DNA of 64,000 bases, from NCBI GenBank assembly GCA_944325555.1, contig CALVAN010000004.1:1-64000 (forward strand), written 5' to 3'. This DNA is from Candidatus Gastranaerophilales bacterium (GTDB taxonomy: Bacteria; Cyanobacteriota; Vampirovibrionia; Gastranaerophilales; Gastranaerophilaceae). The position numbers and the translations under genes are program-made. The stretch's first letter is position 1; each line of letters starts with the position of its first letter. Positions 24,276-30,304 of this stretch are shown here, piece by piece. The notes beneath the pieces were generated by a model that saw nothing but the letters and a program-made list of their open reading frames with translations, was not told the origin of the DNA and did not search any database.

Positions 24276-25406
24276 CTATCTTATCTGAATAGGCATAATC
24301 AAGCAGAGATAATCATCCTCGCTGTCAGGTCTGAATAATGTTGCAGACAAACTTCCGCCCAAACCGATTTTAACCTTTTCGGATTCCATAATTTTTAAAG
24401 AATCAAGAACATATCTGTAATTAAAAGCAATTGTCAATTCTTCGTCAGTATATTCTGCAGAAATGGAATCCTCGCCCAATCCCGCATCGGGAGTATCGGC
24501 TTTTAAAAACAGAGTGTTTTCGCCAAAAATAAATTTAACAATATTTGTTCTTTCATTAACCATAACCGCAACTCTTTCAAGAGCGGAAATCATTTCTTCA
24601 CGTTTAACTATTGCATTTTTTTCGCAGCTTTGAGGAATAAGCTGTTTATAAGGCGGATACTCACCTTCAAGAATACGTGAGGTCATAATCATTGAAGAAG
24701 TTTTGAAAATAATTCTTGTTTTTTCAATTATCAAACACAATTTTTCATCATTTACAAAAGAAGCTATTCTTAAAAATTCCTGCAAGGTTTTTGAAGGAAT
24801 TACACAGCTTATATCTGTTTCTTTTTCGTTTGTAATTTTTTCTACAATTCTTGTCAAACGGTTTCCGTCTGTTGCTGCCATTTCAATATTTTCTTTTGAA
24901 ATTGCACAAAATACACCGCTTATTATGTTTCTGTTTTCATAATTTGCCGCAGAAAATGCAGTATATTTAATCGATTTTATAAAAGGATTTATGTCAATTT
25001 CAACGCATTCTTTATCTTTTAACTCTTCTTCGGTAATTGTTTGAGGAAATTCGTCAGCACTGATACCGATAAGTTCAAATTTAGAATTTCCGCAAATTAT
25101 ATTAACAACATTTGTTTCTGCATTCAATGAAAAAACAACCGGTTTGTTGCTTAAACGGGAAACAATTTCGGAAAGTTTTTTTGCAGGCAATGTAATTTTT
25201 CCGGGAGTTTGAACAGATGCTATAGTTTTTGTTGTTATATTAATATCTAAATCTGTTGCAGCAAAGGTAATGTAATTGTCAGAAGATGCAACAATTAAAA
25301 TGTTAGAAAGTACCGGTTGGATACCTCTTGTTATTGTTGTTTTTTCAACAATTTTTAAATTAGTAAGCAAGGATTCTTTTTCTATAGTAAATTCCATGTT
25401 TGACAT
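24276..25406 (-). CDS. dnaN: DNA polymerase III beta sliding clamp
   Basis: 376 residues from ATG 25406, chosen because AGGAG lies 6 nt upstream; the frame runs to 25430 but without a ribosome site. Three repeated clamp domains of about 125 residues each are visible, with the family ending (YLCLIMPIQIR). It forms the ring that tethers replicative polymerase to DNA. It stands alone on the minus strand downstream of a very AT-rich spacer. dnaA is not in the window. Confidence 0.94.
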   Translation of the reverse strand: MSNMEFTIEKESLLTNLKIVEKTTITRGIQPVLSNILIVASSDNYITFAATDLDINITTKTIASVQTPGKITLPAKKLSEIVSRLSNKPVVFSLNAETNVVNIICGNSKFELIGISADEFPQTITEEELKDKECVEIDINPFIKSIKYTAFSAANYENRNIISGVFCAISKENIEMAATDGNRLTRIVEKITNEKETDISCVIPSKTLQEFLRIASFVNDEKLCLIIEKTRIIFKTSSMIMTSRILEGEYPPYKQLIPQSCEKNAIVKREEMISALERVAVMVNERTNIVKFIFGENTLFLKADTPDAGLGEDSISAEYTDEELTIAFNYRYVLDSLKIMESEKVKIGLGGSLSATLFRPDSEDDYLCLIMPIQIR

Positions 25407-25430
25407 ATTTTCTCCTGACGATTTTTGCAA

Positions 25431-25848
25431 TAAATTTTTTTGTTTTTTATTTTAAATTTTCAATAAAAATTTTTTCTGAAAGTTTTTATTTTTTTTATTT
25501 ATAAATTAATTATATAAATAAATATAATAAAATAATAATAAGTAATAAAGAAATAAATTTCTGTATAAAACTATTATAAACCAAACAATAGAAACAAACA
25601 CACCTGTTCAAAACTTTGTTAAATTTTTGTAGAAAATTTTTCAATAATTTTTTAAAACTTTCAAAAATTTTTTTGTTTAATTTTTGTTTGTAGAAAACTA
25701 AAAACTTTTTGCAAAAGTTTGAACATCAAATTTGTAGTTTTGAACAGGTTTTCTACAAGTATTTTTGCGTAAAAATTCAATATTATATTATAAAAAATCG
25801 GCATGGGTAATCATGGAAACCGTTGCCATGCTTTATTTTTAACTTTAC
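25431..25848. other. Candidate replication origin (oriC) upstream of dnaN
   Basis: The first 180 bp (about 25431-25610) are almost pure A/T, as expected for an unwinding element. TTTTCTACA, one base from the TTTTCCACA DnaA box used in Cyanobacteria, occurs three times: 25628-25636 (minus), 25689-25697 (minus) and 25749-25757 (plus). CCTGTTCAAAAC at 25603-25614 is the inverse of GTTTTGAACAGG at 25737-25748, which directly abuts the third box. No protein gene is evident. In Synechococcus elongatus the origin is near dnaN, which supports the reading by analogy. Confidence 0.55.
25793..25831 (-). terminator. Probable terminator of the 99-residue gene
   Basis: GCATGG (25801-25806) pairs with CCATGC (25826-25831), and on the minus strand CGATTTTTTATA follows. 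It supports transcription of the small gene upstream. Confidence 0.5.
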
Positions 25849-26148
25849 TTAATATTTTTTGAAATCATTTGCTTTTTGTTTGTGAATCCAGCGTGCCATT
25901 TTTTGCTGTTCAAAACTCAGAGCAAAATTATACAGGCTTTCTATCAGATTTCTGCCCGAGGGTGATTTTCCTATGAACAAAAAATTTCCTGCTTTGTTTT
26001 TTGCAATATAAATTTCTTTTTGCAAAATTCTGTCAACATTTGTTTTGGCAGGTGTTTCTATTTTTAATTTTAACCATATATATAAAAGAGAAACTGAAGG
26101 TTTTTCTTCGTTTTCTTTTAAAAAATCAGAAAATTCTTTTAGTATCAT
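25849..26148 (-). CDS. Small basic protein of unknown function
   Basis: 99 residues, Lys-rich, with no signal peptide. KAGNFLFIGKSPSGRNLIE is the most distinctive stretch. There is no clear ribosome site before ATG 26148. The gene lies between a candidate origin and an isochorismatase-like gene on the same strand, with a probable terminator after it. I do not recognise the family; it could be a weakly translated or over-called gene. Confidence 0.5.
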   Translation of the reverse strand: MILKEFSDFLKENEEKPSVSLLYIWLKLKIETPAKTNVDRILQKEIYIAKNKAGNFLFIGKSPSGRNLIESLYNFALSFEQQKMARWIHKQKANDFKKY

Positions 26149-29392: not shown

Positions 29393-30304
29393 TTAGAAAA
29401 AGCTTACTATGCAAAGAATGGCAAATATTGCGATAAATCTTTGTACATTGTTCATTGCTGACATAAATTCTTTTTCGTTTTTGATTTCTTTATCAGTGTA
29501 TAGCTGTAATTTTTTTATTGTGTTTAATGCGGGAAATATTGATAAAAATATTATAAAAAATTTTGTGGATAACAAATGTGCATGGATACCGAGAAAAAGA
29601 ACTGCATAAATTAAAAATATTAAAAATATATAAAAATAATATGCATTGTTTTTATTTCCGCAAATTATCGGGATTGTTTTTTTACCTTCTTCTTTATCGT
29701 TGTTGTAATCCAGAAAGAAATCCGTATAAAGCAAAGTAACAGTGACAATTGCAAATGATAATGACAACCAGATAAGTGCTGAAGATATTTTACCTGTCAT
29801 TACATAATAAACGCCGGTGAATAATAAAGGTGAGAAAAGTATGCCTATAACAGTTTCGCTCAATCCTATATAACCGGATTTTGGATAAATTAAACAGAGG
29901 ATTCCGCTTATTGCAATCAATTCAAGAATCGGTAGTCCGTATATTTCTATAAAAAAAGCGCCCGTAACTAATGCGATGCCAAAAAGTATTGCACAAACTT
30001 TAAGAGCTTTGTTTGTCGTAATTTGTCCGTCTATAAAACATCTGCATTTTCCCTTTTTGATATTTATATTTTTGTCTTTTTTTTGTTTTTTTAAGTAATT
30101 TTTGTAATCAATAATGTCATCAAAAAGATTTCCGCCAAGATGAACACATATTATGCCAAGCAGAGCAATAATTCCGTAAATAATACTGCCTTTTGCAGCA
30201 ATACCTGCACTGAAAGCTATTGCCCATGCTGTAATTGACATAGGCAAAGCGTATGCACGTGTACAATCCATCCAGAAAAGTAATTTGTTCATGATAACAA
30301 GCAT
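29393..30304 (-). CDS. UbiA-family membrane prenyltransferase
   Basis: 303 residues with about eight or nine membrane segments. Two Asp-rich sites characteristic of UbiA enzymes are visible: NLFDDIIDYKN near residue 59 and DFFLDYNNDKEEGKKT near residue 200. Such enzymes attach a prenyl chain to an aromatic acceptor (menaquinone, ubiquinone, heme O) or make related lipids. A MenA-like role would supply quinone for the FixC-type oxidoreductase encoded at 62184, but this is inference. ATG 30292 (MNKLLFWMD) is an equally possible start; neither has a clear ribosome site. Confidence 0.85.
   Translation of the reverse strand: MLVIMNKLLFWMDCTRAYALPMSITAWAIAFSAGIAAKGSIIYGIIALLGIICVHLGGNLFDDIIDYKNYLKKQKKDKNINIKKGKCRCFIDGQITTNKALKVCAILFGIALVTGAFFIEIYGLPILELIAISGILCLIYPKSGYIGLSETVIGILFSPLLFTGVYYVMTGKISSALIWLSLSFAIVTVTLLYTDFFLDYNNDKEEGKKTIPIICGNKNNAYYFYIFLIFLIYAVLFLGIHAHLLSTKFFIIFLSIFPALNTIKKLQLYTDKEIKNEKEFMSAMNNVQRFIAIFAILCIVSFF

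Follow-up and report, generated by a model that had tools for sequence, protein, structure and literature searches.

The closest described systems are the chromosomal origins of cyanobacteria (Synechococcus elongatus PCC 7942, Anabaena PCC 7120 and Cyanothece ATCC 51142), which lie next to dnaN with dnaA often elsewhere, and which combine an A/T-rich duplex-unwinding region (DUE), a DnaA-trio and an opposed pair of boxes 11 bp apart, the boxes being of the TGTGG type (PMC4674748). Closely related in layout is the basal unwinding system (BUS; DnaA-boxes plus DnaA-trios) of Bacillus subtilis and others, in which a DnaA box is oriented toward a trio across a 13-nt spacer and the NAN triplets are followed by A/T-rich DNA; S. 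elongatus is among the species with a predicted and tested BUS, and published spacers between trio and box peak at 10-13 bp (PMC8287927). The locus described here, in a Candidatus Gastranaerophilales genome of 2.32 Mb in 60 contigs, shares the dnaN neighborhood, the DUE, the trio, the opposed box pair and the 13-nt spacer, but lacks TGTGG boxes; compared with the BUS, no counterpart of the first tandem box can be recognized, and the trio, known here from sequence, is A/T-rich (AAT/TAA) in this genus.

The host is a non-photosynthetic bacterium of the gut, related to cyanobacteria and belonging to a class that we take to be Vampirovibrionia or Melainabacteria; among named records, the proteins nearest to its DnaA come from Candidatus Gastranaerophilales MAGs. 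Literature searches, with most subscription journals outside their range, turned up no study of replication origins in Melainabacteria or Vampirovibrionia and no paper in which "DnaA box" occurs together with TTTTCTACA. The gap of 439 bp that separates dnaN from a 99-aa open reading frame (ORF), and which holds the candidate, is near certainly the chromosomal origin of this genome.

Organization of the Origin Region

The window is the whole stretch of DNA that was analyzed, 64,000 nucleotides in length, and the features in and around the gap are given below in its coordinates; congener counts refer to 22 genomes of the same genus.

24276..25409, minus strand: dnaN, DNA polymerase III beta clamp (Pfam PF00712, PF02767, PF02768), pointing away from the origin
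25431..25548, no strand: A/T-rich DUE, called from composition; A/T-rich in 22 of 22 congeners despite sequence drift
25531..25548, plus strand: DnaA-trio-like element AAT AAT AAT AAG TAA TAA; middle A in all triplets, near-invariant in congeners
25549..25561, no strand: 13-nt spacer between trio and first box; length fixed and sequence variable in congeners
25562..25570, minus strand: DUE-proximal DnaA box in a weak form, TTTTATACA on minus, from the per-site congener tally
25605..25613, minus strand: DnaA box TTTTGAACA; identical in 19 of 22 congeners, 43 bp from the first box
25628..25636, minus strand: DnaA box TTTTCTACA, first box of the original prediction; site check and congener tally
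25689..25697, minus strand: DnaA box TTTTCTACA, second box of the original prediction; TTTTGAACA in 6 congeners
25717..25725, plus strand: weak DnaA box GTTTGAACA; TTTTGAACA in 7 congeners
25738..25746, plus strand: DnaA box TTTTGAACA, arm of an inverted pair; identical in 20 of 22 congeners
25749..25757, plus strand: DnaA box TTTTCTACA, third box of the original prediction; 11 bp from its neighbor, TTTTGAACA in 7 congeners
25799..25836, minus strand: GCATGG/CCATGC inverted repeat, then a T-run on minus; found by eye, conserved in congeners
25849..26148, minus strand: 99-aa ORF bordering the origin; no Pfam match, with an ORF of similar length here in most congeners

The anatomy is that of a classical oriC: a 7%-GC unwinding region, a DnaA-trio-like element, a 13-nt spacer and seven DnaA boxes, which are recognized through their position and conservation and which form a cluster beside the A/T-rich DUE near a replication gene. 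An almost pure A/T stretch, three TTTTCTACA boxes and the absence of dnaA from the window had all been put forward in the original prediction, and each was borne out: GC content is 7.1% over 25440-25580, the three boxes lie at the coordinates and on the strands listed above, and the single dnaA of the genome is on another contig (C2). The BUS definition asks for three or more NAN triplets no farther than 16 bp from a box, on the side of A/T-rich DNA; here there are six triplets at a 13-nt spacing, and they are conserved; such triplets are a weak criterion in A/T-rich DNA, and the trio call rests on conservation. The position and orientation of the element are alike in other families and in cyanobacteria, TAGTAGTAG or a near form of it is found in many other families, and the H. 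pylori trio AAT-AAT-AAT-TAG-TAA resembles it. The box facing the trio, at 25562, reads TGTATAAAA in 15 congeners, TGTTCAAAA in 4 and TGTTTAAAA in 3.

To the right of the last box, a block at 25776-25797 reads CATGATAATAC in most congeners and has an A/T-rich variant here; it is perhaps a promoter element. The inverted repeat beyond it could tentatively be the terminator of the incoming 99-aa gene. Promoter and terminator scans gave nothing above chance, and the automatic terminator scan called no terminator at the repeat. A further TGTTCAAAAC lies at 25907-25916 inside the 99-aa ORF, and the box match recurs there in congeners; this may reflect conservation of the box or of the codons, the two being indistinguishable.

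One DnaA Box in Two Forms

The inverted pair pointed out in the original prediction is real, forming a perfect 14-mer (ACCTGTTCAAAACT at 25602-25615 and AGTTTTGAACAGGT at 25736-25749), but it is not a separate feature, as its arms belong to the same family as the boxes, TGTWNAAAAC. In the alignment of the 22 congeners TGTAGAAAA and TGTTCAAAA, the opposite-strand forms of TTTTCTACA and TTTTGAACA, replace one another at orthologous sites; at 25749, for example, the ratio is 13 to 7, and at 25689 it is 14 to 6. The pair therefore adds further DnaA boxes, and a separate operator, which was considered for it, was rejected as its sequence replaces TTTTCTACA at these sites. Judged from the swaps, TTTTCTACA and TTTTGAACA are interchangeable forms of one box, TTTT[CT or GA]ACA. 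Compared with the canonical TTWTNCACA, the changed base is position 6, from C to T or A; the C-to-T change first proposed applies to the three boxes then seen, and the other form carries A. The proposal of a lineage-specific box likewise holds, though only half the boxes had been seen and the change reaches well beyond the species.

Strict TGTWNAAAAC occurs five times in 196 bp, with weaker copies in addition, against 0.03 expected when the region is shuffled at constant composition (at most 2 copies in any of 20,000 shuffles). No comparable cluster is found elsewhere on the 131.8-kb contig that holds the locus, nor is there a rival among the first 100 of 258 genome matches listed, which covers the contigs listed rather than all 60. 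The original prediction had asked whether the word clusters only here: no other three TTTTCTACA lie as close together in the genome, the next being pairs on contigs C5 and C6. In the window 6 copies are found where 1.4 would be expected, a number that none of 100 shuffles attained, but the 69 copies in the genome amount to no genome-wide enrichment. It is thus clustering alone that marks the origin. Canonical boxes mark nothing, as there are 103 in the genome and 0 in the origin; cyanobacterial-type TTTTCCACA boxes are not found next to dnaN, the nearest TTWTCCACA being at 29564.

The same box is found throughout the order. Among 379 boxes from 48 genomes, many of them close relatives and the counts thus non-independent, the central dinucleotide is AG in 149, TC in 118, AT in 44, TT in 26, TG in 7 and AC in 2, collected with a scan pattern (TGTNNA[AT]AA) that would also catch canonical boxes. 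Of the 379, 369 have A or T at position 6 and 276 have G or C at position 5, while the canonical C at position 6 (complement G) is seen in three. Taking one genome per genus (n=19) leaves the pattern unchanged: AG 88, TC 18, TG 5 and AC 2.

Conservation and GC Skew

In most genomes of the order, about 5-12 boxes cluster upstream of dnaN, against about 0.5 expected. The altered box also forms clear clusters upstream of dnaN in three other class families (f8, f9 and f10), and the first two boxes are spaced 42-44 bp apart in these families and in most order genomes with a cluster. Of the eight other class families sampled, f15 has a weak altered cluster and f11-f14 have no clear cluster within about 1.5 kb of dnaN; a class-wide statement therefore holds for DnaA residue 433, discussed below, and partly for the box. 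Beyond the class, other members of the phylum retain TTTTCCACA.

Four genomes of the family seemed in a first scan to have no boxes upstream of dnaN. In two of them, G028 and G023, which represent two genera, the cluster lies 5.2-5.4 kb farther upstream (loci L314, at about 53.8 kb of G028:C2, and L321, at about 75.9 kb of G023:C4), with six boxes in 300 bp, an A/T-rich flank and about 5 kb of other genes between origin and dnaN; it is the densest in the stretch examined. In a further genome, G024, allowing ATAA endings brings out three boxes just upstream of dnaN. That the cluster is part of the dnaN promoter was considered and rejected, given its distance from dnaN in G028 and G023.

GC skew was computed on stretches of contigs. 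On the contig of the locus the cumulative minimum is at about 25.1 kb, and mean skew is -0.066 on its left side against +0.037 on its right (Mann-Whitney p = 4e-6). This places the locus at the minimum, next to dnaN as originally proposed; a minimum far from 25.6 kb, which by the original prediction would have refuted it, was not seen. In G046, from another family of the order, the skew changes sign at 263 kb and dnaN is at 263.1 kb; in G059, a single-contig class member outside the order, the flip at about 1738 kb is at dnaN, and the opposite switch near 0.6 Mb is half a chromosome from it. The minimum lies at most about 5 kb from the box cluster in G006 and G031, and at about 59 kb, some 5 kb past the cluster, in G028; over the stretches taken from G034, G027 and G023 the skew is noisy. 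G031 also has a second, divergent dnaN-like gene (G031:C3:35123-36133, 26% identity) beside the normal one.

The altered boxes sit at the positions of cyanobacterial DnaA boxes, which is the main argument that they are DnaA boxes themselves; the skew switch, the box cluster and this match of positions together place the origin beside dnaN. The boxes could instead be operators of another transcription factor regulating dnaN, with the origin elsewhere; in favor of this, the cluster lies directly upstream of dnaN, and its box departs from the canonical form at a position important in E. coli. Such operators would not account for a skew that switches at the cluster in several genomes, for the match to cyanobacterial positions, or for the A/T-rich flank that the cluster keeps in G028 and G023 though 5 kb of genes part it from dnaN, and this explanation is considered highly improbable.

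The origin reading is held with high confidence as a whole, that is, an oriC at 25431-25760 with about seven TTTT[CT or GA]ACA boxes that DnaA would bind, followed by filament formation and melting; what is shown directly is where the region lies, how it is laid out and conserved, its skew switch, and that the box change co-occurs with a change in DnaA. By homology, DnaA would bind the boxes via domain IV, and from the box at 25562 an ATP-DnaA filament would cross the 13-nt spacer onto one strand of the trio at 25531-25548. The filament would then melt the flanking A/T-rich region, again by homology, thereby letting the helicase load.

DnaA Residue 433 and the Change of the Box

The DnaA of this genome retains the recognition residues Arg399, Pro423, His434 and Thr435 (E. 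coli numbering), and lacks the standard Asp at position 433, reading DKKHTT where E. coli reads GGRDHTT, with Lys at 433. Within the order the residue is Lys in nearly all genomes, Arg in a few and Asn in one; in 20 class genomes from beyond the order, it is Lys, Gln, Thr, Gly or Arg. No class member examined has Asp there, while 20 of 20 phylum genomes outside the class do. As Asp433 is also present in the DnaA chains of E. coli, B. subtilis, M. tuberculosis and A. aeolicus, a loss of Asp in the class is the natural reading. In families f11 and f12 (L128, L130, L132, L134 and L135) DnaA reads GxGNSS (Gly433) or RTHSS (Thr433), and no box cluster is seen near dnaN. A first look, which may have missed some, gave no DnaA match in G058 and in the cyanobacterial G229, G231 and G232; loss of dnaA has been reported for some cyanobacteria (Ohbayashi 2016, as cited in PMC8287927).

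A quick DnaA tree of 49 rows needs a single Asp/non-Asp change; it was built with column 433 included, one very long branch is unsure, and the direction of the change is not given by the tree. The box change and the Asp433 loss thus amount to one event on the tree, from which a link between both cannot be established. D433 is described as highly conserved and as contacting bases at position 7 (PMC8235120); the changed base is position 6, and the structural link is therefore not direct. Of the box positions, 5 alone is reported to be tolerant (PMC5043019).

We infer with moderate confidence that the change at residue 433 contributes to the altered box; on the initiator side, replacement of Asp433, in most cases by Lys, probably matches the change at position 6. 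In its fuller form, which is thought fairly probable, initiator and box would be a re-coded pair, with Asp433 replaced (mostly by Lys), position 6 changed from C to A or T, the forms TTTTCTACA and TTTTGAACA in use, the intermediates TTTTGTACA and TTTTCAACA selected against, and a code distinct from that of photosynthetic cyanobacteria. A real origin whose boxes have undergone A/T drift with relaxed specificity, residue 433 being coincidental, is an unlikely though serious alternative: the genome is A/T-rich, a single change on the DnaA tree leaves room for coincidence, and D433 is reported at position 7, not 6. Drift would be expected to hit positions 5 and 6 alike, whereas across the order position 5 largely stays G/C while position 6 is almost always A/T, and AC and TG centers are nearly absent beside the many AG and TC. 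In addition, four class members whose dnaN regions are at 45-53% GC (G081, G096, G141 and G126) still have TGTAG or TGTTC boxes. The lineage appears to have changed both its start signal and a protein residue that reads it.

Comparison with Known Systems

The class members examined are all without Asp433, and wherever an origin is recognized, the box is altered at the neighboring position; this offers a natural, testable case of an essential initiator changing along with the site that it binds. A standard search for DnaA boxes would fail to mark the origin in this gut lineage; the motif and architecture described here do, which is useful, for example, for replication-rate estimates from metagenomes.

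The box of Thermotoga maritima is longer and of a different sequence. Its DnaA (PMC10316083), from an unrelated lineage, is also without Asp433 (Ser in the alignment), and its base-reading residues are largely not conserved with those of C. difficile (PMC7561715). The boxes of Epsilonproteobacteria likewise have a class-wide altered core, explained there by changes in the DnaA recognition helix (PMC5043019); in that class position 5 is a fixed T and the Asp-His pair is kept, whereas the present lineage has an altered position 6 and no longer carries the Asp. In comparison with the cyanobacterial origins, where TTTTCCACA boxes are paired with a DnaA carrying Asp433, the origin described here has T or A at position 6 of its boxes and Lys at residue 433 of its DnaA.
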